Assembly: GCF_000190735.1 (NCBI RefSeq)
Contig: NC_015177.1
Location: forward strand, 4,030,001-4,094,000
Reading direction: 5' to 3'
DNA from: Pseudopedobacter saltans DSM 12145
GTDB lineage: Bacteria > Bacteroidota > Bacteroidia > Sphingobacteriales > Sphingobacteriaceae
Length of the DNA stretch: 64,000 bases
This document shows positions 18,703 through 34,643 of the stretch, in pieces; within the stretch, counting starts at the first letter, position 1; each line of letters begins with the position of its first letter. Both the position numbers and the translations under genes were made by a program. The notes under the pieces were generated by a model. It did not search any database. It was not told the origin of the DNA and was given only the letters and a program-made list of their open reading frames with translations.

Positions 18703-21700
18703 CTATTTTATAACTTTTTTATCTCTTATCGTGCCATCATCGTTGACAGAAAGTTTACAACGTATAGCGCTTTCATTTAGTCTAACATCATAGCTGGTAT
18801 AGCCTTTTTCTTTCTTCACCATTATTCTGGATTCATCTACAGGTACCGCGCCGATTAATTCGGCAATTACTGTTTTTACCATTTCCGGAAGGTCCACATA
18901 GTTTACCGCTCTGGCTTCTTCTTTAGCAAGCACTTCGCCTTTTTGATTAATCTTAGTTGTAGTCACCAGAAACTCATTTATATTTTTATATGAGGTTGAT
19001 TGCATGATATACACATCGTTTTCGACTGATAATCGATCCAATAATCCGCCAGCAGCTGTTTTTATTATTGTTTCTGCTACGCTAGCTGGTGGGTCGATTC
19101 CAATAAAATTTCGGATGCATGATTCTCCGTTTTCTATAGGCGTACGTTTACCTCCAAAAGCCATATAGCCATCCATCTTTTTGTCAATTTTTGAGCCGAC
19201 CATTATTCTACGCTGAGGGCCAAGTGTAATGGTTCCATCTTCAAACACTATTTCCGGCTCTAGCAGATAAGCACCTTGCTTTGCAGGAGCTTTAAAATTC
19301 ATCTTTATCGTTTCAGATGCATACTTAGGTATGCTTAATTTTGTTTGTTGATTGCTGATTTCTTTGCCATCCAACGATTTAATTTTCAGGTTGATCTGTA
19401 CATCGATATCTTTCCCGTAATCGTTCCATGCCACGACATCTTTTATATAGTTCGTACCTGGCTTGTAAATTGTTTTTTGAGCATACCATTCCCTGCATTG
19501 CAGCATGTCGACCGAAACGCCAATAGGTTCATTTAACCTGATCAGAGACAGGTTCATATTAGGTTGTGCTACCAGAGAATCGGCTATATTACCCAATAGA
19601 AAGTTTTGTCCGTTGATCCAGCCACTTAAAAGGGCAAATGGCGCCCATGCCTGCAGACGGTTCTTACGGTGGTAAGTTCCTATATCGGCATGCAAATCTG
19701 CGAGTAACTGCCCTATGATATGTTTGTCGAAATAAAACACGCCCCAACCACTAGCTGTTCTGCTTGTTTTATAATTCTCCCGTGGCTCCAAGAGTCCAAA
19801 TTCATTCGTCCACAAACGACATGATTCCAGTATGGTTGACGGCCGGTCGGTCGCTTGTTCAAAATAAGGCGCCGGAACTACCTGTTCTGAATAATCATAT
19901 ATATGCTTAGCATAAAAATCATCTTCTGACCAAAGACGGGTAGGATCATATTTTCGAAGTTCGGATTTAAGTTTTTCAAGTCTTACATGACCCTCATTTT
20001 CCTGATCCCAGGCTACTATAGACGGATGGTTGACATTTTGCTTTATCCAGCGTTTAAACTCTGTTTCAACGTCTTCAAGATCTTTTCCTACAGGCTCATC
20101 ATCATGCATATAGCGCCATTCGTCCTGTAACATGATGCCTTCCTGATCGGCGATCTCGTACCACTTACTATAGGCATGCCCTAAGTGAATACGCAGGTAG
20201 TTGAAGTTATATTTTTGAATAGCTGTACGTAAAAAATTTCGAATCCATGCTTCATCAAACATCACATCCTGCCAACGGTTTAATGCTCTTACGAAGGCTA
20301 TGTTTTCAGCCCGGAACATTACCTTTTCTCCATTCAGTAGCACATCTTTACCTTTAACCTCTATGTTTCGATAACCAAACATCGCACTTTTGTCTGAAAG
20401 GATATTTCCCTGTTTGTCTGCGATCGTCACATTCATTCGATAGAGTTTAGGCGTTCCTTCTTTGCCGGCACTCCAATACTGCAGTTTGCCGGAAGGCAGA
20501 TCCAACGATGTAGACTGATTACTATTTTTTTCACTATTGCAGTTTGCAGTTTGCTGGCTAATAATCCGGTCTCCATCAAAGATAGATGCGGTTACAATTA
20601 AATCTGTATTTGCATTGCCGTTATTTGCAATTTCTATAGCACACTGCGTAGATTTATTCTTGATGTCGGGCAGCGTTTTGATATGTTTTATGGTGATCGC
20701 GTTGCTCAGTTCGATGGAAACATCATCCCATATTCCTGGAGCTCTTGTATTACGCCACCATTCCGAACTGTTTTCTTTGGAAGGAGAGGAAGCCGTGTTC
20801 CAGCTTCCTACACGAACGACTAATTCATTGTGTCCGTTGTAATTAATAGCTTTACTGATATCAAATTCGGCATGCGAATAGGTACAATGGTTATCGAATC
20901 CTATTTCTTTGCCGTTTAGAAATACGAGGGCATTATACTTCGCTCGGATTTTAAGCAATGCGGATGGATAGCTCTCCTCATTCACATCAAATCCAAAACG
21001 ATACCATACGTAGTTGTAACCCACATTATCTGTCACATCGTTGCCATGTAAGCCATCGGCAACCAAAGGTTTGGACATAGTTAATATTCCCGGAACCGGA
21101 ACTTTGGAGCGGTAAGCATCTGGTTGTTTATCCGTCAATGCTACATCCCATATTCCGTTTAAGGAGATGGTTTTGTTTGTTCGGCTATATTTAACTTCTT
21201 TACCATTTACCGTCACCTGTTGTAACGATACCTCACGGGCATTGTTTATTTCATGACTGACCGGAGTTTTTGTTATTCTTACATTTTTTAAGGCTACATT
21301 AGTAATGGGCATATCTTTAAAGCCATTGACTTCAATCCCACTGCGGGAAGCATATGCACAGTTTATATTTTCTATGGTGAAATTATTAAAGCGTGTAGCA
21401 TAATTCTCTTTACTTTCGGACTTATAATCGGGATCGAACCGGATAGCTGTCCCCACGGAATCCATGTTTACATTGCGTATCCAAGTATTCTCCATATATC
21501 CGCCCCGGTCCAGATTGGACTTAAAGTAAATCGCATTACTGGCTTTTGGGATCTTTATGTTTTCGATAAATACATTACGTACGCCCCCGGAAATTTCACT
21601 GCCAATACATACGCCACTTGCCAGACTTTCGAAAGTAGAATTGCGTACGATTATATTTTCGGTAGGCTGACCAATTCTCCATCCATCCTGATCACGCCCT

Positions 21701-22536
21701 GATTTGATCGCTATTCCATCATCTCCGGTACGGAAGTGACAATTTTCGACTAATGCATTGGTTGTCGATTCTGGATCAAAGCCATCACTGTTCGCATTAA
21801 AGCTATCTATAGAAACATTGCGAACAGTCACATTATTACATCCGATGGGGTGTATAACCCAGAATGTAGCATCGATAATTCTAACGCCTTCAATAAGTAT
21901 ATTTCTACAATTCAAAGGTTCTATAAAAGCAGGGCGAAGCTTGTGCTTCTCGCCAAATAAACGGTTGTATACAGGAGCTCCCTCGCGTCCCATTTTGCGA
22001 ATGAGTGCCTGATCTTTTTTCTGTTCAGGTTTCCAGTTAGCGATATTTTTAGAACCCTGGCCATTCAATATACCTTTACCCGTGATTGCTATGTTCTCGA
22101 CCTGATAGGCATATATCAGCGGAGAGTAATTAAACACTTCGGTTCCTTCCCATCGGGTCAGCACAGCGGGTAGATAGTCTTTTTCATCGTGACTGAATAT
22201 CAATTCAGCACCTTCTGACAGATATAAATTAACATTGCTCTTAAATATAATTGGTCCTTTAATAAAATATTTTCCTGGAGGGACGGTGACTTGTCCTCCA
22301 CCTTCGTCGCTGCATTTAGTAATTGCTGTGTTGATAGCCGGTCGGGAGTCTTTTACTGCTCCTTTCTGCGCCCCAAAGTGAAGAATATTATAATTTCTAT
22401 TGGCAAATGTTGGCGCTTTTATATTTTTTTCAATCTCCTTCACGTAATCCCACCCGGTTTGGGTAAATCCGGCGATGGGAATAGCCAATAGCATAATAAA
22501 AAGGAGAAATAAATTTTTTAGCTTCATCATATTCAT
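18703..22536 (-). CDS. Secreted GH28-GH2 fusion glycoside hydrolase
   Basis: 1277 residues with a signal peptide (about 1-26). Residues about 45-450 are a right-handed beta-helix of the GH28 polygalacturonase type: NANSDGFDPES (249-256), RTGDDGIAIKSG (269-280) and AIYFKSNLDRGG (335-346). The usual GHG histidine is replaced: SLASGVCIGSE at 304-313. Residues about 455-1277 are a GH2 enzyme: sugar-binding domain (WYRFGFDVN), immunoglobulin-like domain, and TIM barrel with NHPSIVAWDQENEG, where Glu848 is the likely acid/base, and TNEFG, where Glu912 is the likely nucleophile. It is the last gene of the minus-strand cluster. The product would attack galacturonide and beta-glycoside bonds in the periplasm or outside. 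Confidence 0.85.
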   Translation of the reverse strand: MNMMKLKNLFLLFIMLLAIPIAGFTQTGWDYVKEIEKNIKAPTFANRNYNILHFGAQKGAVKDSRPAINTAITKCSDEGGGQVTVPPGKYFIKGPIIFKSNVNLYLSEGAELIFSHDEKDYLPAVLTRWEGTEVFNYSPLIYAYQVENIAITGKGILNGQGSKNIANWKPEQKKDQALIRKMGREGAPVYNRLFGEKHKLRPAFIEPLNCRNILIEGVRIIDATFWVIHPIGCNNVTVRNVSIDSFNANSDGFDPESTTNALVENCHFRTGDDGIAIKSGRDQDGWRIGQPTENIIVRNSTFESLASGVCIGSEISGGVRNVFIENIKIPKASNAIYFKSNLDRGGYMENTWIRNVNMDSVGTAIRFDPDYKSESKENYATRFNNFTIENINCAYASRSGIEVNGFKDMPITNVALKNVRITKTPVSHEINNAREVSLQQVTVNGKEVKYSRTNKTISLNGIWDVALTDKQPDAYRSKVPVPGILTMSKPLVADGLHGNDVTDNVGYNYVWYRFGFDVNEESYPSALLKIRAKYNALVFLNGKEIGFDNHCTYSHAEFDISKAINYNGHNELVVRVGSWNTASSPSKENSSEWWRNTRAPGIWDDVSIELSNAITIKHIKTLPDIKNKSTQCAIEIANNGNANTDLIVTASIFDGDRIISQQTANCNSEKNSNQSTSLDLPSGKLQYWSAGKEGTPKLYRMNVTIADKQGNILSDKSAMFGYRNIEVKGKDVLLNGEKVMFRAENIAFVRALNRWQDVMFDEAWIRNFLRTAIQKYNFNYLRIHLGHAYSKWYEIADQEGIMLQDEWRYMHDDEPVGKDLEDVETEFKRWIKQNVNHPSIVAWDQENEGHVRLEKLKSELRKYDPTRLWSEDDFYAKHIYDYSEQVVPAPYFEQATDRPSTILESCRLWTNEFGLLEPRENYKTSRTASGWGVFYFDKHIIGQLLADLHADIGTYHRKNRLQAWAPFALLSGWINGQNFLLGNIADSLVAQPNMNLSLIRLNEPIGVSVDMLQCREWYAQKTIYKPGTNYIKDVVAWNDYGKDIDVQINLKIKSLDGKEISNQQTKLSIPKYASETIKMNFKAPAKQGAYLLEPEIVFEDGTITLGPQRRIMVGSKIDKKMDGYMAFGGKRTPIENGESCIRNFIGIDPPASVAETIIKTAAGGLLDRLSVENDVYIMQSTSYKNINEFLVTTTKINQKGEVLAKEEARAVNYVDLPEMVKTVIAELIGAVPVDESRIMVKKEKGYTSYDVRLNESAIRCKLSVNDDGTIRDKKVIK

Positions 22537-22558: not shown

Positions 22559-25558
22559 CTATGGTAATAAATTTTCTTTGAATTCGATTTCAATAATACG
22601 GAGTTCATGGTTTGCTTTGTCTGCGTTTTCAGCCTTAACCAAATCGAGCTCGCCGGCCACAGGCTCGACGAGTTCTACAATAGCGCCAAAAGCGTCTTCA
22701 TCTTTACTTGAGCCTTTAAGCTTGATGGTTATCTCTTTCGTCATCGTTGGTTTTACCGGCAAATGTACGTATCCTAAACTACGGTCAGTTTCTCCACTCC
22801 ATATCAGCTCCTTTCCTGCATAAATTTCTAATGGATAGCTCCGTTGGCGCCAGCCTGTTAGTTTCATGCAAACCTCATCGACTCGAGCCATACGTTGTAA
22901 GTGATAGGTGATCCAGCCTGTCGACAGCTTTCCATCGTTTTTCCATTCACTCAGTTCATTGTCATCAAAACTCTTTATAGCCTGATCTGTATTGGCCCCC
23001 GCGACAGCAGATAGAATGGGCACATCAATTTTCGAATCCTTATAAGATGGTGTTTGTGGTGTCTCTCCACGTGTTAAGCGCCCCTCCAGATGGTTAGCGG
23101 GAATCCATGGCGTTAAACCGCCTTTGGTTTCAAAAGGTAAGGTGTGAAATACAATTTCGGCATCTTCCAATCCTTTCGCTTTAGCCTTTAAAATCACTTT
23201 ACCAGCTGTAGTGGTTGAACGAATTAATATCCGGTTGACTCCACATTCTACGGGCAAGTTTTTGCTCAGAATATAGTTGTCTGGACCTTGGGCAATGCCG
23301 CCACGCCATTCTGCAGGACCTTCCAAAGAAAAGCTTACCAGGTCATTAGCTAATGGACAACGACGTCCCTGTGCATCGACAACTTCTACCTGTGCAAGTA
23401 ATAAATCTGCACCGTCCGCTTTCCAGCCTTTTGGATTCTCTATGGCAGTCAGTTTCAAAGCCACCGGTTTGCCGGTTGTTTCCATCTTATAGCGAGCGAC
23501 TTCTTTCCCTTTGTTATAGCCAATAGCTTCTAAAGTTCCTGCTTGAAAAGCTACATTAGGATAGGTAAAGAGAAACTGCGCATCTTGCTTGGCACCGGAT
23601 AAGGCTTTGCCATTTAAAAAAAGTGAGACACTATCTGTATTTGCAACAACGTATACGGGTTTCACGACATCGCTTTCATAATTCCAATGCCCCACAATAT
23701 AAATACGCGGCTTTTCGATATCTACCCAGCCGTCCCACATTACCTGATGTGCAAAATAGGGATCCTTAAATATGCGCATCGGGTCGGTGACACCGCTACG
23801 ACGGTAATTCTCTTCGCCACGGAAATGGGTGTTGGTATCGGAAAAAATAATTTTCGCACCACCTGAACTTACGCGGGTGCCTGTTCCGGGACGTTCACGA
23901 AAGAACTCGAACCAGCGAAGTACATTTTCTACCGTAAACTCATCCTGATTATGATTATAAGCTTCCGGTCGATTCACTTTTTTTCGTAATGACGCATAAT
24001 AAGCCTCATTTACTACACCTTCCTTGTGATATGGATAAGAGTAATTATCCCAATATTTTCTTAATCCTTCATCACGACAATATTCCATAGCCCACATTGG
24101 GTGGCTGGCGCTTTTATTGATATAAAACATTTCGCCACCATATTCTGCTTCGGGAATATCTAACATTTCGCGGCTTCCAATAGCACGTCCACCATGCAAA
24201 TCATACAAATCACGTATTTGCTTCATCTCTATCATATGCTCGCGACTTATGGATTCATTTCCACATTCGTAGAATAGAATGCTTGGGTTATTGCGGTTAT
24301 AGATGATTGCATCACGCATGAGGAATAGCCGTTGCTCCCAATTTCGACCCTCAACGTCTTTTTCCGCATCGCCTGCAGGCATTGCTTGAATCAAACCCAC
24401 ACGATCGCAAGACTCTACATCCTGTTTCCAGGGCGTTATGTGCATCCAACGAACCAGATTGGCATTCCCTTCGACCATCAAACCGTTACTGTAATCACTT
24501 AACCATGCAGGAACAGACAAACCGATGGCGGGCCATTCGTTACTGGTACGTTGGGCAAATCCTTTCACTTGCAGTACTCGGTCATTTAGCCATATCTTTC
24601 CGTCCCCGAAGCGGGTTTTGCGAAAACCTGTACGCGTTACTACCTCGTCAATTGGTTTTCCATTGACCGTTAATGTAGTTTTTACGGTATATAAATAACC
24701 ATAACCCCAACTCCAAAAGTGCAAACCCTCAGCTTCAGCTTCCGCGGATAATAGTGCTGTTTCATTGGGTTGCATGACTTTGCTTTCTCCATTAAAAGTT
24801 TTTAGTAAAGTGCCGTCACGGTCGATAAGCTCTACCCGATATCCGACAGTCTGTACCTTACCCGTTTCATTTTTAACTTCTGATTCGGCATGTATAGTTG
24901 CTTTTTGTGACTTGATCCGGATATCTTTTGCATAGATATATACACCCGTAGTCTTTAAATTACTATAGAGCGGTAGGGTTTGATAGAGCTTATCGGTGAC
25001 ATGCAGCCATACATTCTTGGTCAGGCCTCCGTAATTGGCATTAAAGCCACGGCTACACCATTGATACATGACGCCTGTAGCACGTTCTTCATACTCCCAG
25101 TTATTGTCTACACGCACAGCAATGACGTTAGAACCTACTTTTACCAAGTCGGTTAGGTCGAAACCAAAAGCCATCGCTCCATTCTCATGTAAACCTACAT
25201 ATTTTCCATTTACGTAAACGTCTACTCCTTGCCGAGCTCCCTCAAACTCTATGAATATCTTTTTACCTTTGGCTGATTGAGGAAGAACAAAATGCTTACG
25301 ATACCACATCACCGTATCTGTCAGATCACGAATATCCACTTTAAACGCCTCGTCTTCATTAAATGCATGCGGTAGCGTTACTTTCTTCCAATCAGCGTCG
25401 GTACTATTGGACTTCTCTGCATGGGGAATATCGCCAACTTTCAATAACCAATCGGAGTTGAAATTGTATTTTTGTCGGTTTTGCGCTTGAAGCGCTGTTG
25501 ATACGACCAGCAAGATAAGTATGAGGAGGCTTGCACTCCTGTTTCTAGGATTATTCAT
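22559..25558 (-). CDS. Secreted glycoside hydrolase family 2 protein with C-terminal discoidin-like domain
   Basis: 999 residues with a signal peptide (about 1-26, ending LQAQ). The GH2 sugar-binding domain (MWYRKHFVLP, VYVNGKYVGLHENG), the immunoglobulin-like domain and the TIM barrel follow in order. NNPSILFYECGNES gives the acid/base candidate Glu435, and HPMWAMEYCRDEG the nucleophile candidate Glu492. DUF4982-like beta-sandwiches follow, and the last 200 residues resemble an F5/8-type module (IKSFDDNELSEWKNDGK). Beta-galactosidase or beta-glucuronidase activity is likely, not decidable. It overlaps the upstream chimeric gene by 8 bases, so they are translationally coupled. Confidence 0.88.
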   Translation of the reverse strand: MNNPRNRSASLLILILLVVSTALQAQNRQKYNFNSDWLLKVGDIPHAEKSNSTDADWKKVTLPHAFNEDEAFKVDIRDLTDTVMWYRKHFVLPQSAKGKKIFIEFEGARQGVDVYVNGKYVGLHENGAMAFGFDLTDLVKVGSNVIAVRVDNNWEYEERATGVMYQWCSRGFNANYGGLTKNVWLHVTDKLYQTLPLYSNLKTTGVYIYAKDIRIKSQKATIHAESEVKNETGKVQTVGYRVELIDRDGTLLKTFNGESKVMQPNETALLSAEAEAEGLHFWSWGYGYLYTVKTTLTVNGKPIDEVVTRTGFRKTRFGDGKIWLNDRVLQVKGFAQRTSNEWPAIGLSVPAWLSDYSNGLMVEGNANLVRWMHITPWKQDVESCDRVGLIQAMPAGDAEKDVEGRNWEQRLFLMRDAIIYNRNNPSILFYECGNESISREHMIEMKQIRDLYDLHGGRAIGSREMLDIPEAEYGGEMFYINKSASHPMWAMEYCRDEGLRKYWDNYSYPYHKEGVVNEAYYASLRKKVNRPEAYNHNQDEFTVENVLRWFEFFRERPGTGTRVSSGGAKIIFSDTNTHFRGEENYRRSGVTDPMRIFKDPYFAHQVMWDGWVDIEKPRIYIVGHWNYESDVVKPVYVVANTDSVSLFLNGKALSGAKQDAQFLFTYPNVAFQAGTLEAIGYNKGKEVARYKMETTGKPVALKLTAIENPKGWKADGADLLLAQVEVVDAQGRRCPLANDLVSFSLEGPAEWRGGIAQGPDNYILSKNLPVECGVNRILIRSTTTAGKVILKAKAKGLEDAEIVFHTLPFETKGGLTPWIPANHLEGRLTRGETPQTPSYKDSKIDVPILSAVAGANTDQAIKSFDDNELSEWKNDGKLSTGWITYHLQRMARVDEVCMKLTGWRQRSYPLEIYAGKELIWSGETDRSLGYVHLPVKPTMTKEITIKLKGSSKDEDAFGAIVELVEPVAGELDLVKAENADKANHELRIIEIEFKENLLP

Positions 25559-27209
25559 TGCTTTTCAATACTATATCAAATTCACCAACATAAGAATGGT
25601 CTGTACGCAGTTCCGGAAAACTATTATCTGCAGGACGTTGTTTTTCCGGACGAGCATACACGTCTGTCAATACAGAAATTTTATTAGAAGTCGCTTCTTT
25701 TAACTCGATATAACCATTATTAAATATTTGAATGCGAGCTGGACCTTCCGAAGATTCAATCCAACGTGTACGTTTTACTCCAGCCGTACCATCCCATTTC
25801 CATGTTCCGAAGATTGGCGCGGCCTGTTTATTAGGGTATGCATCATAAGGACCTAATCCTAACCACTTCAGATCGTTAATACCTGTCATTTTTATATCCA
25901 TCCCTACAAGCGGTAGTCTATTTATTTGGACTTGGGGTCGTAATTCATAATGAATATTTAATAGGCCATTACCCTTGATTGTATATTTATACTGTACAGT
26001 AAAGCGATTGTTTTGGTCTATCATGTATTCAACCTGTGCATGAATAACTTTGTCATCAGCCTTATTTTCCACATTCCATGCGGTCACTTTTTGTTGGTAC
26101 TGATTAAGATTCACTGCTTTTTTTAGCTCTGCCGCTCCAAATGCATAACGTTCATTGGGATCGAGATCGTGCCAAATAGTAGGAGAGATTCCTTCAATTA
26201 TTTTCGAGTCATCCAGCTGGGCGGCTATGAGTTGACCTAAGTTCGGATCAAATACATATTTTGTATGACCAACCGTTATAGTTAAAAGTTTACTGTTATC
26301 TACGATTGGCTTTACGCTATATGTTTCTATAGCTTCTTGCTGCTCTGGAGCACATAGTTCGACTGCACATCGTGTAATTTCAGATCCGTCTTTGCGGAGG
26401 AAAATAAACCATGAATAATAGGTTTTTCCTGGTTTTACTGTTTTTATTTTAGTAAGAGGAAGATGCATAGTGCTTGTCGCATGAGGCGCGCCATGTAGTG
26501 AAGAAAATCCTTTGTCTAAAAGTAACTCATCTTCATATATTTGCCATTGCACACGTACGTCCGAAAGATCAGTATAGTCAAAGTCGTTGCGTACAGGGAT
26601 CGGTATAGAATCCTGACCTACTATAAAACTAAGTTTTTCTACAGCTACAAACACGGGAGCATATACCGCTTTTATTTCCCAATAGTCACGGGTTGGATTT
26701 CTATAGGAGTTAACAATACCATCCCATCCATTATCCACCATACGCAGATATTTATCGTCTATATTGAACATCGGGTCTTTCTGCTTGAATACTTCCGGAA
26801 ATGACGTAAACATGCGTTTAGCAATATCACGGTGTTGCTGTTTGCCTACTAAAGATAAGTCTCCGGCACGAAGATTGGCCTCTTTCATAACTTCCTTTAA
26901 TCGTTTATAGGTGTCCTCGCCTATTGTTGTTAAAGCAGACTGTTCATGCGCTTTCGCAAATACGTTGACTATCCGAGTATAATGGACATCCTTGGTGAGA
27001 TAGCGAGACCCATGTCGACTGTAGTGACTGATATAAAACGGACTGTATCCCTTTGGAGCCTGAGTTTGCGGAATAAATTCTGTCGTATAAGCATAATAAC
27101 TGCCTCCCGCCTTATCTATATTTCTGTTAATTTCTTCACGAGCGGTCTGACTCCATAGGGAGCAAAAACTAAATAGGAACAGCGAAACAAAAAGGCCTAT
27201 TTTCTTCAT
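25551..27209 (-). CDS. Chimeric protein: truncated histidine phosphatase joined to the C-terminal part of a LacZ-like GH2
   Basis: 552 residues with a signal peptide (about 1-21). Residues about 45-142 match the N-terminal part of MINPP-type histidine phosphatases: SHYSRHGSRYL (catalytic His66), SALTTIGEDTYKRL, RAGDLSLVGKQQHRDIAKRMF. The C-terminal part of that fold, including the second catalytic motif, is absent. From about residue 160 the sequence is the post-barrel part of a LacZ-like GH2: NPTRDYWEIKAVYAPV, then a beta-sandwich, then the small-chain domain (VGHTKYVFDPNLGQL, LKWLGLGPYDAYPN). The GH2 sugar-binding and catalytic barrel domains are missing. Both activities are probably lost. 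The frame is intact and coupled to the downstream GH2 gene. Confidence 0.8.
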   Translation of the reverse strand: MKKIGLFVSLFLFSFCSLWSQTAREEINRNIDKAGGSYYAYTTEFIPQTQAPKGYSPFYISHYSRHGSRYLTKDVHYTRIVNVFAKAHEQSALTTIGEDTYKRLKEVMKEANLRAGDLSLVGKQQHRDIAKRMFTSFPEVFKQKDPMFNIDDKYLRMVDNGWDGIVNSYRNPTRDYWEIKAVYAPVFVAVEKLSFIVGQDSIPIPVRNDFDYTDLSDVRVQWQIYEDELLLDKGFSSLHGAPHATSTMHLPLTKIKTVKPGKTYYSWFIFLRKDGSEITRCAVELCAPEQQEAIETYSVKPIVDNSKLLTITVGHTKYVFDPNLGQLIAAQLDDSKIIEGISPTIWHDLDPNERYAFGAAELKKAVNLNQYQQKVTAWNVENKADDKVIHAQVEYMIDQNNRFTVQYKYTIKGNGLLNIHYELRPQVQINRLPLVGMDIKMTGINDLKWLGLGPYDAYPNKQAAPIFGTWKWDGTAGVKRTRWIESSEGPARIQIFNNGYIELKEATSNKISVLTDVYARPEKQRPADNSFPELRTDHSYVGEFDIVLKSNE

Positions 27210-27304: not shown

Positions 27305-28498
27305 TTAATGGATTAAATGTTTGTATCGCAATAATGCTTCTACATAATAATAATCTGCATACGTTAAAGGAACATCCACTTCTCTATTCTCATTTAGGTT
27401 GCCGACAGAATGTTTAAGGATAAATCCTCCATTTGAACCCGGCGCCGCTAAATACTCATCGGAAGTTAGCGTTTGTAATTGCTTACGCGCCACAGAAAGG
27501 TATTCTTTTGCTAAACTTTTATCTACATATTGGCTTAACTCTATTAATGCAGATGCCATGATAGCTGCTGACGAAGCATCCCTGTATGTATTTGGTATAT
27601 TAGGGGCATTAAAATCCCAATATGGAACTTTATCTTCTGGCAGGTTAGGATGATTTAAAATGAATTTGGCAATTTTTTCAGCTTGTTCCAGATAGGTCTT
27701 GTTTTTTGTTTCTCTATACATCATGGTATAACCATAGAGACCCCAGGCCTGTCCGCGCGCCCATGCCGAGCTGCTTGAATATCCCTGATGGGTATCAACC
27801 TTTGCAACTTTGTTATTTACAGTGTCGTAATCGACAACATGGTATGAGCTGTAATCGGGACGGAAATGATTAACCATGGTCACTTTTGCATGACTATTGG
27901 AAATCTTATCATATAGTGTGTCTCCTGTCATTTTGTAGACCTCTTCTAACAGTTCAAGATTCATCATGTTATCAATAATGACCGGAAACTTCCATTTTGG
28001 TTTTTCGTCCCATGATTTGATTACCCCTAAATTAGGGTTGAAACGACTTGCCAATGATTTGGCACTTTGTATTAATACTTTTTTGTATTGCTCATCTCCT
28101 GTGATTCTAAATGCTTGTCCGTAGCTGCAATACATCATAAAACCAAGATCGTGGGTATCAAGGGAATATTGCTCTTTTTCGATACGCTTGGTATAGTTTT
28201 CGGCATATTCTTTTAGTAACGCATCTCCCGTATCTTCGTAAAGTTGCCACAATACCCCGCTGAAAAATCCGCTACACCACCAATGTGAATCTGAAGTAAC
28301 AAGCGTCCCGTCTGGAAGGACGTATCTTGGTAATTTATCCGGTTCTTCCAGTAGGCTAGTAGCTAAAAATTTCGCTTGCTCTACACTTCGGTTTAATCCC
28401 TTTTCGATAACAGCATTCATATCACTATCATCCTTTGAAGTACAGGACATAAACATGAGGCAGGTTAAAGCGCTTATAAAAAAAGTTCTCTTAATCAT
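27305..28498 (-). CDS. GH88 unsaturated glucuronyl hydrolase, lipoprotein
   Basis: 397 residues with a lipoprotein signal (MFMSC lipobox at residues 15-19). The fold is the (alpha/alpha)6 barrel of GH88: SLDTHDLGFMMYCSYGQAF carries the catalytic Asp-His pair, WKFPVIIDNMMNLELL the second Asp, and SSSAWARGQAWGLYGYTMMY the conserved RGQAW motif. GH88 enzymes release the 4,5-unsaturated uronic acid left at the non-reducing end by polysaccharide lyases. The preceding gene (13 bases) is a lyase-family protein, a natural partner. Confidence 0.93.
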   Translation of the reverse strand: MIKRTFFISALTCLMFMSCTSKDDSDMNAVIEKGLNRSVEQAKFLATSLLEEPDKLPRYVLPDGTLVTSDSHWWCSGFFSGVLWQLYEDTGDALLKEYAENYTKRIEKEQYSLDTHDLGFMMYCSYGQAFRITGDEQYKKVLIQSAKSLASRFNPNLGVIKSWDEKPKWKFPVIIDNMMNLELLEEVYKMTGDTLYDKISNSHAKVTMVNHFRPDYSSYHVVDYDTVNNKVAKVDTHQGYSSSSAWARGQAWGLYGYTMMYRETKNKTYLEQAEKIAKFILNHPNLPEDKVPYWDFNAPNIPNTYRDASSAAIMASALIELSQYVDKSLAKEYLSVARKQLQTLTSDEYLAAPGSNGGFILKHSVGNLNENREVDVPLTYADYYYVEALLRYKHLIH

Positions 28499-28511: not shown

Positions 28512-30377
28512 TTAATAATTTTTCCAATTTTTCAATTGTTGTATTTCTTGGACGTTCGAGCGATGCTCTTCAGGTATTAACTTAACTTGGAGGTTTTCCT
28601 CTGCTCCAGGAGTTAAATAAGCTTCAAAACCAACAAATGTGGTGTTTGGGTTTGCCTCATCATAACTGTTTGGAGATGTAGTACTCCATGTTTTTAGAGA
28701 AAATTTAGCAGAAGACTCTACTTTAAGTAATAATTTTTTTCCTTGTATGGAAAGCTGGATAGTATGGTCATCTAAAATCTTTGGAGTAGCCTCAGTCAGC
28801 ATATTCCAGCGCACAGTGGTTGGTTTATTCAATGCTTTAATTTCATCCCTTATGACGAAATACTTTTCATCTACCAGTGCCATCCCACGTTTTACGTTAG
28901 CCACCTGATTTTCATATACAGCGCTCATATCTAAAACAGCATACATAAAGTTGGTTTTATTACCTGATTCGGTAATTGATGCGTGATTTTCTACGTTTTG
29001 AAGTTGATTGTTAAATGTTAAAGTGTTGTGTGCCTGGTTGTTGTATCTAAAAATCTTCCATCTATCAGAATCTTGTTTTCGGCCCCATAAGTTCATACCC
29101 AATTTTTCTATTGAATCATAATCTTGAGGTCCAAAGTCCATAGCCCAACGTATATTCTGCTCTGTTATAATGAACGAACCAACATCCAGATGGGTGTGTC
29201 CTGTCTGAGCCGTACCGCCTTTGATAGCTGCGGATAAGCCTTTGTTGAAATTCCAATTAGTGCGCATTATAGCTACAGGCTGTTCAGATGTGGCAGAAAC
29301 CCACATTTTTTCACGTGGCGTTTGTATATTATCCAGTTTTATCTGTGAACCCCATATTATAGCATAGACTCCATACCGATAATCTATAATATTACTTTTG
29401 GAAGCATTTGAAAGGAAGTACTTATCTCCCCATAGGATATTGGTGTTTTTTGTTTGTTTTGCAAACCAGAACATTGGAGGATACATGCGTCCTGAACTAT
29501 TACAATCTCCATAGTTGAAAGATTTGCCATCGCCAAGTATCATATTTTGAATGAAATTACCTGTTTTTAGAAAGCCAGGCATTTGCGTTAAGCCATAGTC
29601 GGTACCCTTTACCGATTTTAGGGCCTCTATTAATAATATATTATAGGTTGTACCGAAAGCCCAATAACTATAGCCTTCGGAGTAAGCACCGTTAGGGGAA
29701 TAGATGCTCATTGGTAATTTAACCTTTTCTACCGCTCGATTTACAATTGAATCTGCAAGTTTTGGTATTCTGTCGTAAATAGCTAATGCGCCTAAAGTCA
29801 TCCCAGCGTTACAAACTTGATTCCAATTATTACGATTATCTAACCAATGGTCATAGTATTCTTTCTTAAACGATGGTCGCAATCCTTTAAGCTCGATTGC
29901 CTCTGCTACATTTTTTTTAGTTTCATCACTTATATAGTTGTAAAGCCAATCATATCCAATCGCTAACGCTGTGGTCATTTCAGCCACATCGAGAAAATGG
30001 GAAGGGTTCCAGTCAGTAAACTGTGCGGCGTTTTTCATTTCAGCCTCGGCCCGTTGTGCATATTTTCCTTGTCCAGTCATTCTGTAGGCATAGCCAAGGA
30101 GTAGCACTCTACGAAGACATTCACGAGAGACACCCAACATCCTTCTTCCAGTAACGACTCGGTCCAATATAGGTACCGACAAAATAGAGTCGGCACCTTC
30201 AATCATTAGGCCATGATAATCCCGCCACATTTTATCCGAGCTTATTACCTTTCTGATATCTTTTTCTGTTTGTGCATCCATAACTAAGTATGGATGCTTT
30301 AATGATGCAGAATTGCTCTTTGTATGGGCACAGGAAACACACAGAGTCGTCAGAATTATTAAAAACAGTTTCTTCAT
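28512..30377 (-). CDS. Heparinase II/III-like polysaccharide lyase, lipoprotein
   Basis: 621 residues with a lipoprotein signal (LCVSC, Cys16). Residues about 30-330 form an (alpha/alpha) toroid (NRNNWNQVCNAGMTLGAL, GAYSEGYSYWAFG with a candidate catalytic Tyr). The C-terminal half is the heparinase II/III beta-sandwich (TGHTHLDVGSFIIT, WAMDFGPQDY, NNQAHNTLTFN). The group includes lyases of heparin, chondroitin, alginate and ulvan; the family number and substrate cannot be told by eye. Products would carry unsaturated uronates for the adjacent GH88 and the GH105 at 41 kb. It lies 6 bases after the stop of the beta-helix lipoprotein gene. Confidence 0.85.
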   Translation of the reverse strand: MKKLFLIILTTLCVSCAHTKSNSASLKHPYLVMDAQTEKDIRKVISSDKMWRDYHGLMIEGADSILSVPILDRVVTGRRMLGVSRECLRRVLLLGYAYRMTGQGKYAQRAEAEMKNAAQFTDWNPSHFLDVAEMTTALAIGYDWLYNYISDETKKNVAEAIELKGLRPSFKKEYYDHWLDNRNNWNQVCNAGMTLGALAIYDRIPKLADSIVNRAVEKVKLPMSIYSPNGAYSEGYSYWAFGTTYNILLIEALKSVKGTDYGLTQMPGFLKTGNFIQNMILGDGKSFNYGDCNSSGRMYPPMFWFAKQTKNTNILWGDKYFLSNASKSNIIDYRYGVYAIIWGSQIKLDNIQTPREKMWVSATSEQPVAIMRTNWNFNKGLSAAIKGGTAQTGHTHLDVGSFIITEQNIRWAMDFGPQDYDSIEKLGMNLWGRKQDSDRWKIFRYNNQAHNTLTFNNQLQNVENHASITESGNKTNFMYAVLDMSAVYENQVANVKRGMALVDEKYFVIRDEIKALNKPTTVRWNMLTEATPKILDDHTIQLSIQGKKLLLKVESSAKFSLKTWSTTSPNSYDEANPNTTFVGFEAYLTPGAEENLQVKLIPEEHRSNVQEIQQLKNWKNY

Positions 30378-30383
30378 GTAAGT

Positions 30384-31679
30384 TTATTTAAGCCTCGCTC
30401 CGATAGGACCACCAGTAGTAGATGCTATAGCTGATATTGTATTAGCAGGATAATTAAATGTGTAAGTTTTTCCAAAAACTATACCTTCTTTACCATCTTC
30501 ATCAACAGCAAACGGCAAACCACTAGCATCACCCATAGAAGACGAACCTCCTTTATCAAAAAATAATTTCCAATAAGCAGTAGGCAAAGGAGGCGCATAA
30601 TCAAAGGTCAACACTTCAGAGAAATTATTTTCTTCTATAAAGCGACCGTCATTTTTCATTTTGATTGCATCTGCCGAAAGGCCAGTACGGAGTTGGAAGT
30701 TAGGATAGTTCTTCAACATATTAGAGAGTGTTGGCTCGTAAAATATGTTGTTGTTACGGATAATAATTTTAGCATTTTTAACACGAGGATCGTTTGCTTC
30801 GTTCGCCATAGCTACATCCCATAATACACCTGGTGAGCTTGTTAATTTCCAGCCGCAATCAGCAAAGATATTGTTCTCAATAAGGACATCTATTGCATAA
30901 TTGATTTCTATATGTCTTCCGATATTAAAAAAAGTATTGTTCGTTAAAGCGTAATGTGCTGTGCCGGAATTGTCAAATCTAACAATCCTGTCTGTTTGGC
31001 AATACACATAACTATTGTTAATCACAATACTTTCCTGGTTATTAGCACGGGTATCTACTATACGCCCATTATCGGGGCTGGTTGAATTTGCTGTGTTTCT
31101 AATAGTACAATTATCAATAAGCACTTTGTTTCCTACGGTGTTAAGACGGAAAAGAGCTTGTCTGACATTATCAACAAAGCAATTTTTTAGTGTTAATGTT
31201 AAGTTAGGCTGATTTGCAACCAATACGCGGTCTGGAACTTTATTTGTAGCCGCATCAACAGCATTGATATAGACATTTTCTAGCGTAACGTTTTTCTCAA
31301 TAAGAACCATGTTGGTAGAGACTGCCCCATTAGCATCGGCTAATGGTTGAAGTTGTGCTAAATTACCTTCTTCCGCATCTTCTGACTTGATAGTTACATT
31401 ACTTCTAATGGTATTATTTCCTTCAAAATAATACACTCCTCCTCGGCGTAAAATATAGGTGCCATCACCGTTTTCTGTGATTGCTTTAGTCAATGAATTG
31501 ACACGGTCTATACCGTTATCTGGTTCTACAATAATTTCCTTTCCCGGATTGTTTCCCGGATCTATTGAAATGTCGGGAAAATCTTGAAGGGTTAAAGTGT
31601 TTTCTTTTTCGCAACTGGTTAGCGAGATAGACAACAAGCCTATCCCAATTGCAACCAAATTAATTTTAATACTTTTCAT
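30384..31679 (-). CDS. Right-handed beta-helix surface lipoprotein (DUF4957-like)
   Basis: 431 residues with a lipoprotein signal (LTSC lipobox near residue 23). From about residue 90 it is a parallel beta-helix of repeated short strands: NVTLENVYINAVD, LTLKNCFVDN, VLIDNCTIRN, SIVINNSYVYC, HYALTNNTFF and DVLIENNIFADC. It resembles the DUF4957/chondroitinase-B-like proteins found beside TonB receptors in Bacteroidota. It may bind or cleave uronate polymer at the cell surface; I see no proven active site. It takes the position just after the TonB receptor gene where a SusD gene would normally be. Confidence 0.75.
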   Translation of the reverse strand: MKSIKINLVAIGIGLLSISLTSCEKENTLTLQDFPDISIDPGNNPGKEIIVEPDNGIDRVNSLTKAITENGDGTYILRRGGVYYFEGNNTIRSNVTIKSEDAEEGNLAQLQPLADANGAVSTNMVLIEKNVTLENVYINAVDAATNKVPDRVLVANQPNLTLTLKNCFVDNVRQALFRLNTVGNKVLIDNCTIRNTANSTSPDNGRIVDTRANNQESIVINNSYVYCQTDRIVRFDNSGTAHYALTNNTFFNIGRHIEINYAIDVLIENNIFADCGWKLTSSPGVLWDVAMANEANDPRVKNAKIIIRNNNIFYEPTLSNMLKNYPNFQLRTGLSADAIKMKNDGRFIEENNFSEVLTFDYAPPLPTAYWKLFFDKGGSSSMGDASGLPFAVDEDGKEGIVFGKTYTFNYPANTISAIASTTGGPIGARLK

Positions 31680-31706
31680 AATATTATAGTTTATATTAAG
31701 ATCAAA

Positions 31707-34643
31707 TTATCTGAAAATGTCATATCTAAAGCCCAAGTACGCAGCTGAGCCATAAAACTCAGTTGATGTAGGATAGTCAGTTACATTGCGACGTTTTCTA
31801 TCCGATGACATTGTGAAGTTTGATAACGTTCCGTAAAGCGATAACTTTTTAGATAGGGTGTATTTAAGTTGTGCATCCCACTTCGTAAAAGCTCTTGTCG
31901 ATTCTACGTCAGCTGCATCTGGACGATGTTGTTCTGAAATAAGCACTCCGTCTTGATAATTACATGATACCCTTCCCGAGAATTTCTTATAATCATATCC
32001 CAATGACACATTGAAAAGTAAAGAAGGTTGGTTTAATAATTTATCGGTGTAAGTAACCTCAGAATTGACAGGTAGAAAAGGCTTTTCAGTTCCCCCTTGC
32101 ACATAATCAGGATTGGCTATTCTTCCCTTCAAAGTTTCGAAATAGTCCATTTTTGAGTCCATAAATGATAAGTTTGTACTTAGTACTACCCCTCTCAGGA
32201 AATTATCTAGCTTACGAAATTGTATTTGAAGATCAAACTCTAAGCCTTTGATTGTGGCATCATTAGGGCTATTTAAAGGGTAATTGATGTTAAAGCCTGC
32301 AAGTTCAGGATAAAGTCCGTCAAAGTTTGTAGGATCTGTTACGGTACCATTTAACAAATACGCGGAACGTGTGTAAATAAAGTTTTTAATGTTTTTATAG
32401 AAACCACCAACTGTGAACAAGCCCCAATCTGGTCGATAAAAAGATAGTATCAAATCGTAGTTTGTTGAAAGCGCAGGTTTTAGATTTGTTCTGCTCCAGG
32501 TAACATCACTAGACGTTGGTTTAATTATTGTCCTAGGTGCGAGTAAGTTATAATCGGGTCTAGATAATGTTTTAGTATAGGCTAATCTAACATCCATCCA
32601 TTGGATTGGTTTTACACGTAAATGCATTTGTGGTAACCAATAGCCAAATTTCTCTGAGTCGGAAGTTTTTTCAAAATCTGCCTCGAAATGACTTGTTTCA
32701 CTTTCCGGAACATTTTGACCGCTGTAAGCCTGATAGCGTAAATAAGAATGGTCATGACGTACACCTGGGATGAACGTTACCAATTTTCCAAAGTTGATTT
32801 CACTCATAATATACTCGGCCAACATTTCTTCGTGTCCATCGTAATCATTTTGTAAAGTTGAAGAAGGGGTAGATTGATAAATACTTCTATTCACGTTATA
32901 GAAGTTTCTCATAGCATTATGATCTAAAGCGAAGTTAAAGTTCAAATCATCGTATTTGTCATTTAAGTAAGTATGTGGTTTGAAACCTGTGTCAATGAAG
33001 TTCTGAATACCTATTAAATTCTTAAATGTAGACTTCTCAAGATCAGGCATGTTTGCATTTATTACATTCAGTCCCTCTCTTAGGTCCATACGACCATAAT
33101 ATTGTGAGGTTACTAAAGACCTATCTTTTTGGCGGTATTTTCCACCAAATTTAATGTAACCGCTTATTAGGTCATTAACAGTGAATGGTTTTTTCCAATC
33201 TAACCAAGCACTATATTCTGTTTCCTTTGCTGCTTCCGTATTAAAATACCCTTCATACATATAGTACTTCGAAAGAGGGGTTTCATCTACAAATTGAGGA
33301 CTTACAGCTAAATAAGGCGGTAAATATAAAAGCGAGCTAATTGGTACTGTAAAAGGTGAGTTTATTCTAAACTGCAAGTCGTGGCTGTAAGGAGTTTTAG
33401 AGTTAGAGTTGCTACGTCCAGCTCCGACTTCTAAAGTAGAATTTAAAAGATTAAATTCACCTTGTAGCATATTGGTAATGTTGGTAGTATTAAACTCTAT
33501 GTCAGTTTGGTTGAATCTCAGGTAGTTGCCATTAAAGTCATATCTTTTTTCACGTACATCACGATCGCGATTCATTCTGCTAAAGAGGTTAGACATTTTA
33601 ATTTTAGAACCGTTTCCCAGATTCCAGTCCATATTTATATTAGCATTATAGCGTTCTCTTTTCTCAAGATTGGACTGTAAACGAGTGGTTCTTAGCCAAG
33701 GCATTGTATAATTAAGACCTTCCGTAGGAGCATTTCCACTAACGTCATAATTCCCTCTAAATGTGTCATTACTACGATCCGTTTTATCTGCACTCGCTGT
33801 GAAAATTACACCAAGACGATCATTTAAGAAACGGTTACTTGCAAAGATATTTCCTTTATAACGACCAATACCATCTATTTGAGAATGATACCCTGATTCT
33901 CCTGAAACATTTAATTTAAAACCGCTTGACGCGTCTTTTAATATCAGGTTAACTGTACCTCCCAATCCATCGGCGTCTTTATCAGCTGTACTTGCTTTCA
34001 TTACTTCCGCACCGGCGATCATTTCTGGTGAAATCATGTTTAAGTCAGTACTGCGATCTGTACTGCTGGTAGATGGAGCATTCATCCCGTTGATCGCTAT
34101 CGTGTTATATTTCGGATCCAAACCCCTGATGATGATCTTTTGACCTTCACCTCCATCACGCTGGATCATCAATCCAGGTAAACGCCCAACAGCATCAGCG
34201 ACGTTAACATCGGGTAGCTCACGTAATTTTTCTTCCGAAACTGCATTGATAATACCTGTTGCATTTAATTGTTTCTTAATAGCAGCTGTTTGCCCTTTTA
34301 CCTGAGCGCTTACAACTACCTCGTTTAACTGACGCCCATTAGGATTTAACACTAAGTCGATTTTTTTGACCTCATTAGCCTTAAGATCCACCACAAATTC
34401 TTGTGTTTGGTAACCAATAAAAGAGAATTGAATGGTTTGCTTACCTGCTGGCGCAAACAAGGTATAACCTCCATTTGCATTGGTAATAGTTCCTTTTGTT
34501 GTCCCTTTGACGGCTACAGTAGCACCTATAAGGAAGTCCTTAGTGTCACCATCTGTAACAACTCCGGTGACCGTCGCGGTCTGTGCGACAAGCTTCACAG
34601 TTATCAATGATAAGAGTGATAACATTAATAGTTTTGCTTTCAT
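31707..34643 (-). CDS. TonB-dependent outer-membrane receptor, SusD-less type
   Basis: 978 residues: signal peptide (about 1-20), an N-terminal CarboxypepD_reg-like domain (about 21-108, VTGVVTDGDTKDFLIGATVAVKGT), the plug domain (about 125-240, LPDVNVADAVGRLPGLMIQRDGG and IIIRGLDPKYNTIAINGMNAP), and the 22-strand barrel to a C-terminal aromatic (YLGFRYDIFR). It imports oligosaccharides across the outer membrane using TonB energy. First gene of the minus-strand cluster. No SusD follows it anywhere in the window, so capture of the glycan must differ from the Sus model. Confidence 0.93.
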   Translation of the reverse strand: MKAKLLMLSLLSLITVKLVAQTATVTGVVTDGDTKDFLIGATVAVKGTTKGTITNANGGYTLFAPAGKQTIQFSFIGYQTQEFVVDLKANEVKKIDLVLNPNGRQLNEVVVSAQVKGQTAAIKKQLNATGIINAVSEEKLRELPDVNVADAVGRLPGLMIQRDGGEGQKIIIRGLDPKYNTIAINGMNAPSTSSTDRSTDLNMISPEMIAGAEVMKASTADKDADGLGGTVNLILKDASSGFKLNVSGESGYHSQIDGIGRYKGNIFASNRFLNDRLGVIFTASADKTDRSNDTFRGNYDVSGNAPTEGLNYTMPWLRTTRLQSNLEKRERYNANINMDWNLGNGSKIKMSNLFSRMNRDRDVREKRYDFNGNYLRFNQTDIEFNTTNITNMLQGEFNLLNSTLEVGAGRSNSNSKTPYSHDLQFRINSPFTVPISSLLYLPPYLAVSPQFVDETPLSKYYMYEGYFNTEAAKETEYSAWLDWKKPFTVNDLISGYIKFGGKYRQKDRSLVTSQYYGRMDLREGLNVINANMPDLEKSTFKNLIGIQNFIDTGFKPHTYLNDKYDDLNFNFALDHNAMRNFYNVNRSIYQSTPSSTLQNDYDGHEEMLAEYIMSEINFGKLVTFIPGVRHDHSYLRYQAYSGQNVPESETSHFEADFEKTSDSEKFGYWLPQMHLRVKPIQWMDVRLAYTKTLSRPDYNLLAPRTIIKPTSSDVTWSRTNLKPALSTNYDLILSFYRPDWGLFTVGGFYKNIKNFIYTRSAYLLNGTVTDPTNFDGLYPELAGFNINYPLNSPNDATIKGLEFDLQIQFRKLDNFLRGVVLSTNLSFMDSKMDYFETLKGRIANPDYVQGGTEKPFLPVNSEVTYTDKLLNQPSLLFNVSLGYDYKKFSGRVSCNYQDGVLISEQHRPDAADVESTRAFTKWDAQLKYTLSKKLSLYGTLSNFTMSSDRKRRNVTDYPTSTEFYGSAAYLGFRYDIFR

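Follow-up and report, generated by a model that had tools for sequence, protein, structure and literature searches.

A secreted-type phosphatase–GH2 fusion gene in Pseudopedobacter saltans, possibly a young non-catalytic relic

What becomes of two enzyme genes when the front of one is joined in frame to the back of the other and the catalytic apparatus of both appears to be left behind? The question is raised by an open reading frame (ORF) in the 64,000-nucleotide window analysed here, which spans positions 4,030,001 to 4,094,000 of contig NC_015177.1 of Pseudopedobacter saltans DSM 12145. Delimited from the ORF listing and from parent alignments, the ORF (25551..27209(-)) starts with ATG, encodes 552 aa without internal stops, begins as a branch-2 histidine phosphatase, the front third of which is present, and continues with the region that follows the barrel in LacZ-type glycoside hydrolases of family GH2. 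The chances seem about even that this chimera is a young, still-translated, non-catalytic relic. So far it is a single in-frame fusion gene, chimeric genes made from joined enzyme genes being already known, and its interest lies in the identification of both kinds of parent and of the likely type of source polysaccharide utilization locus (PUL). If young, it would be a natural snapshot of an in-frame join of unrelated enzyme genes before decay or refinement; if retained, it would imply that LacZ domains 4-5 could act without the barrel.

The two halves, which a first-pass annotation of this DNA had proposed to search separately, each match separate full-length genes elsewhere. The N part (residues 1-146, 26772..27209(-), assigned by homology) opens with a putative signal peptide (about residues 1-21, 27147..27209(-)), recognised by eye and by the way it aligns with the phosphatase parents at their N-termini. 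Four full-length phosphatases of 423-431 aa match residues 1/7 to 141/144 at 43-46% identity; among 400 genomes of the order, four phosphatase genes match residues 1/6 to 143/145 at 42-47%, and the parents read in loci L046-L049 are separate full-length genes of 428, 431, 424 and 423 aa. Phosphatases of family f33 reach 52-53% identity to the N half (f33 is probably Bacteroidaceae, and f1 probably Sphingobacteriaceae). Up to four matching phosphatases were seen per f33 genome, with at most four candidates scored. The solved structure 7r5y matches residues 21-142 (E 6.3e-25), and the MINPP of Bacteroides thetaiotaomicron (4fdt) aligns with residues 30-143 (E 1.8e-9). The earlier label "MINPP-type" has nonetheless to be given up, because the nearest phosphatases are of the HD type and not the HAE type. 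Among the nearer full-length relatives, [FL]RF[AG]HD occurs in 24 of 30 rows, which list two genes twice, and six rows have neither motif by pattern; HAE is found in 9 of 10 more distant rows. The Bacteroidota phosphatases nearest the N half (L017-L020, L112-L129 and others) mostly have HD[GST] in place of the HAE of MINPPs. With HD-type branch-2 histidine acid phosphatases of Bacteroidota (7r5y; L017-L020, L112, L116) the chimera shares the leader, residues 21-143 and the RHGSRYL motif.

The remainder of the protein is GH2. It matches proteins of 957 and 954 aa at 43% (residues 141/151 to 548/549), both separate full-length genes (L044, L045), and in the order sample two GH2 genes, matching residues 142/150 to 548/550 at 43-44%, are together with the four phosphatase genes the best matches after the chimera itself. 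Matches to the tail reach the C-termini of the GH2 parents or stop two residues short, and a near relative, the 955-aa GH2 of Phocaeicola sartorii (L088:8363-11227), aligns over its residues 546-953, the last 408 or so, at 47%. Since phosphatase homology ends at residue 143-146 and GH2 homology begins at about 150-152, the junction zone falls at residues 146-151 (26757..26774(-)), as placed by alignments with both parent sets; the first-pass annotation had put the switch near residue 160, within 26700-26790, and was right that a switch exists, while its position can now be given more narrowly. In the L088 protein the first aligned residue is 546-547 of 955, and in the nearly identical GH2 of genome G1025 Pfam matches the barrel up to residue 539 and domain 4 from residue 601 on, so the GH2 part begins just after the barrel. 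The predicted structure of the L088 parent (mean pLDDT, the predicted local distance difference test score, 62.7) is poor over the barrel and the boundary, and the barrel end was not located in it. The tail comprises a conserved segment whose counterpart in the parent follows the barrel model and precedes domain 4 (residues 151-185, 26655..26759(-)), the LacZ domain 4 region (residues 186-300, 26310..26654(-)) and the domain 5, or Bgal_small_N, region (residues 301-552, 25554..26309(-)), the limits of the two domain regions being approximate. Both domains are kept, and they are the same domains 4 and 5 as in LacZ-type GH2 enzymes with a C-terminal Bgal_Small_N, architecture type 3 in PMC5145203. 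Pfam finds LacZ_4 (206-265) and Bgal_small_N (315-472) in the chimera and no histidine phosphatase domain at E<=1, and residues 163-472 align to positions 593-894 of an NCBIfam LacZ-type beta-galactosidase model with 89.8 bits against a cut-off of 999. Because Pfam names the GH2 part alone, an automatic pipeline could count the chimera as a beta-galactosidase, which it should not be.

Neither catalytic apparatus appears to have survived the join. Roughly residues 1-546 of the GH2 parent, which hold the N-terminal beta domains and the TIM barrel, are missing, and with them Glu430 (GNED) and Glu495 (TEY) of the L088 protein, the glutamates that serve GH2 enzymes as acid/base and nucleophile. Phosphatase homology ends at about residue 146 of some 425, so that the alpha/beta core is incomplete and the cap domain, the later arginine and the HD motif are lacking. 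The RHGxRxh nucleophile motif is kept as RHGSRYL (residues 65-71, 26997..27017(-), by alignment), with Arg65, His66 and Arg69 retained and His66 as the nucleophile; the roles of this motif and of the proton donor are those given in PMC3969271 and PMC7762957. The 4fdt MINPP has an HAE proton donor (PMC3969271) and most near relatives of the chimera have HD, whereas the chimera has neither: after residue 146 the sole H-D or HAE is in TIWHDLDP, inside the GH2 tail. In alignment the N part stops shortly before a conserved stretch with an arginine in the phosphatase parents, and this arginine just past the break would, by position, correspond to the third active-site arginine that PMC7762957 describes for BlMINPP. 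The first-pass annotation had described an in-frame chimera of two parents without either catalytic apparatus, and the unbroken 552-aa frame, the separate full-length parents and the loss of the catalytic motifs bear this out. Its individual points also hold: the putative signal peptide; SRHGSRY with His66, read here as SRHGSRYL; the loss of the later phosphatase motif, the [FL]RF[AG]HD of the phosphatase clade being absent; and the loss of the sugar-binding and barrel domains, everything before about residue 547 of the GH2 parent being gone.

Structure prediction, also proposed in that annotation, gives a confident fold of LacZ domains 4-5 for the tail, from a model with no alignment rows for the N half. 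The matches listed for the tail region span residues 173-550, and the absence of a histidine phosphatase among them is uninformative. According to PMC5145203, Bgal_Small_N adds loops to the catalytic site of the barrel in LacZ-type enzymes, so a module made of domains 4-5 would be expected to lack an active site. On these grounds the chimera is predicted with high confidence to be non-catalytic.

Is the chimera found anywhere else? It is absent from all 17 other genomes of the genus, in which the query meets GH2 tails at 21-28%. Nothing that covers both halves stands among the matches listed for 400 genomes of the order (own genome included; 140 pass E<=1e-6), 395 genomes of the class (4 pass E<=1e-18, own included) or 301 genomes of family f33 (167 pass E<=1e-20), the f33 matches listed being phosphatase-only except for two that are GH2-only. 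Some genomes are shared between these samples, and the lists end before the weakest matches; a genuine chimera would be expected high up in them. A scan of 84,980 species with the tail alignment, which relied on two degenerate peptide patterns and is not exhaustive, since very close records may escape it, gave 13 relatives, two of which (L093, L094) are the L045 and L044 genes. The GH2 N-terminal part precedes the tail in all 13, as a single ORF in 11 and across one in-frame TGA in two otherwise full-length genes (L089:8381-11257, Flavobacterium alvei, codon 511; L092:2892-5756, Epilithonimonas lactis, codon 188). Two short tail-matching frames, G015 (483 aa) and G033 (331 aa), came into question as barrel-less tails, but both lie at contig ends and so give no information on the sequence before them. 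No relative was confirmed in a contig search with the single chimera protein or in viral contigs searched with the tail alignment; the 20 records from a plasmid search carry LacZ-type tails or phosphatase fragments, and each falls short of 80% query coverage. A family of full-length homologues continuous across the junction, which would have contradicted the first-pass description, was therefore not found in the searches of genus, order, class, f33 and the 84,980 species, and listings of open-licence papers showed no report of such a phosphatase-GH2 fusion.

The likely source of the tail is indicated by the neighbourhood. The chimera lies between a 999-aa GalA-like GH2 gene with DUF4982 and C5 domains downstream (22559..25558(-)) and a GH88-family gene upstream (27305..28498(-)), which are 64% and 55% identical, respectively, to genes of a Phocaeicola sartorii PUL. 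In L088 both homologues stand in one locus with the full-length parent GH2; G1025 (L130) has the same gene set (64%, 54%) together with DUF2264, GH106, GH28-GH43 and receptor-like genes. Since the Phocaeicola PUL combines the parent GH2 with homologues of two window neighbours, the tail derives from an enzyme of this kind, and the gene sets of related PULs suggest a pectin-type substrate. The GalA-like gene itself is split into two ORFs in P. sartorii JCM 17136 (L088:2563-5606) and intact in G1025 (L130:1410-4481). In Mucilaginibacter rivuli a GalA-like GH2 and a parent GH2 are about 9 kb apart (L065, L045). Phosphatases of the N-half clade adjoin a receptor-like and a SusD-sized gene in 8 of the 13 loci read with flanks (L046-L049, L133-L141), where size and position are the sole criteria for SusD. 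In L136 a GH2 gene immediately precedes the phosphatase, and the L134 locus also has a GH28-like gene. Such placements in glycan loci make it plausible that neighbouring genes were joined by a deletion.

A lineage-specific fusion gene could accordingly have arisen by an in-frame join of two genes, most simply through a deletion between neighbours. An HD-type branch-2 phosphatase gene would have supplied the start, the leader and the front third, and the whole part that follows the barrel would come from a full-length LacZ-type GH2 gene that belonged to a plant-glycan PUL. The protein would be exported through the phosphatase leader and its GH2 part would still fold as LacZ domains 4-5; it should be no phosphatase, with the proton-donor motif and third arginine gone, and no glycosidase, with the barrel and both glutamates gone. 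The frame would be intact for lack of time to break, helped perhaps by the stop/start overlap with the next GH2 gene, whose translation a premature stop could hurt.

Youth is the step on which sequence conservation bears most directly. Segments that the fusion has cut off from their former context show the same degree of conservation as in working enzymes. Of the columns that are invariant in 17 phosphatases the N half keeps all 13, and at the 90% level it keeps 17 of 17. The tail keeps 60 of the 68 columns invariant in 13 full-length parents (leave-one-out values for these parents run from 68/68 down to 68/82), divided into 11/12 in the orphaned barrel-end segment, 12/16 in the domain 4 region and 37/40 in domain 5. 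We lean towards reading the undecayed and seemingly useless RHGSRYL patch and barrel-end segment as signs of little change since the fusion. In 400 neutral simulations, which ignored indels and assumed one transition bias, 10% of runs stayed stop-free to 6% changed codons, 4.5% to 8% and 0.25% to 15%; since an unconstrained frame seldom outlasts 8% change, the ORF should either be little changed since the fusion or be under constraint. G+C content at third codon positions falls from 39.7% in the N half to 28.1% in the tail. When window genes were split in overlapping fashion, 1.7% of the 176 splits showed a difference as large, and this contrast fits, weakly, two origins that are still unblended.

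Several observations weigh against a young relic born by deletion. At the 11-of-13 level the last 90 residues (463-552) keep 24 of 35 columns, as against 93 of 109 before them; these 90 residues, in which comparators keep 83-100%, have lost more conserved positions than any of the 13 full-length comparators; the p value of this regional drop is 0.044, uncorrected over 14 sequences. In the tail tree, whose bootstrap had not settled, the chimera has an end branch of 1.31 and groups weakly (71/94) with Phocaeicola, whose sister stem is 0.28, although other full-length members are also long-branched (1.05, 1.35, 1.63); in the N-half tree its end branch of 0.90 is inside the range of full-length relatives (up to 1.13). 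The long tail branch and divergent C-terminus could mean a long post-fusion history under altered constraint, and lean to the opposite of little change. The first-pass suggestion of a recent event is thus compatible with the kept orphan motifs and opposed by branch length and by the last 90 residues, and stays unproven. No close relative by which the fusion might be dated was found, the structure model is uninformative on the N half, and two of the 13 parental GH2 loci have in-frame TGAs, which could be sequencing errors. The deletion proposed in the same annotation, plausible from L136 and the glycan loci, lacks its exact neighbour pair: no phosphatase directly adjoining a parent-type GH2 was found in the loci read.

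It is possible, if doubtful, that the chimera is a repurposed non-catalytic PUL accessory in which the leader and half phosphatase provide for export and serve as a linker, while the module of domains 4-5 attaches to glycan or to another PUL enzyme. An unbroken frame that has a leader and is aligned with the PUL genes, a tail predicted to fold well with 60 of 68 invariant positions kept, and a branch longer than its sister's with change concentrated in 463-552, as if a lost active-site face had been freed, would all suit such a role, but the uncorrected p value tempers the last of these, the RHGSRYL patch and barrel-end segment are kept as in enzymes without obvious use there, and the gene is found in one genome only. 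Rather unlikely is that we see a protein near its birth, made of enzyme fragments whose superfamilies are unrelated, with the join at a point that is a domain boundary in one parent, and already kept as a secreted non-catalytic PUL component; its domain 4-5 module would then work without the barrel by attaching to glycan or to a partner enzyme, which is unseen in the other loci read. With modest confidence, we favour a relic over a new component.

An open frame need not imply a useful peptide at all. The stop codon of the chimera and the start codon of the downstream GH2 overlap within ATGAATAA (8 bases, 25551..25558(-), as the first-pass annotation had noticed), and the frame might be kept open only for ribosomes to restart on the overlapping start; this is improbable, as no result here supports coupling and an 11-base GH88/DUF2264 overlap in the related PUL L130 indicates that overlaps need no special reason. 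An assembly artefact or sequencing chimera is very unlikely: the case is the only one known, but the host genome, 99.98% complete, was assembled into a single contig (4,635,236 bases), the frame and operon spacing are intact, and full-length parent queries found the missing halves nowhere else in it. The phosphatase query matches the chimera alone (query residues 6-145); the GH2 query matches 19 places, namely the chimera (47% over 546-953) and 18 others, of which those with at least 300 aligned residues are at 24-37%, while two short ones of 72 and 179 residues reach 46% and 36%. Those divergent matches also argue against a split-LacZ subunit that would complement a GH2 barrel of the host with domains 4-5 in trans, on the model of LacM and LacL. 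LacM of the heterodimeric LacLM is a free-standing Bgal_Small_N protein (PMC5145203) and the chimera likewise carries Bgal_Small_N outside a complete LacZ chain, but it is fused behind a phosphatase fragment and also has domain 4, no LacL-like partner or cognate barrel was found in the host, where not every resident GH2 was checked for a missing domain 5, the neighbouring GH2 is of another architecture with its own DUF4982 and C5 domains, and the last 90 residues are the most altered, so that we regard this as the least credible explanation.

Further upstream on the same strand (28512..34643(-)) lie a heparinase II/III-like gene (28512-30377(-)), a gene for a protein with a DUF4957 match just below threshold (30384-31679(-)) and a TonB-dependent-receptor-like gene (31707-34643(-)), recognised by eye and by similarity to receptor-sized genes. 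The DUF4957-like protein directly follows the receptor-like gene (30384-34643(-)), with no SusD-like gene noticed between them and no search aimed at SusD. The downstream GH2 has relatives at E<=1e-120 in 88 of the 400 genomes, mostly at 51-62% identity and a few at 41-45%; in the seven stretches read for synteny (six around such a gene, and L066 as a further G288 flank) none has a match to the chimera. One clade phosphatase, L134:9108-10844, has an N-terminal extension of about 187 residues without a Pfam family, and its locus also contains GH28-like, receptor-like and hybrid two-component system (HTCS)-like genes. The last gene of the run in the window is another fusion (18703..22536(-), 1277 aa), consisting of GH28, then GH2, then residues without a Pfam match. 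At E<=1e-100 in 59 genomes its other matches, found at 14 places in 12 genomes with the host among them, cover GH28 alone, and their frames measure 451-514 aa; the part after GH28 has relatives at 23-32% among the matches listed.
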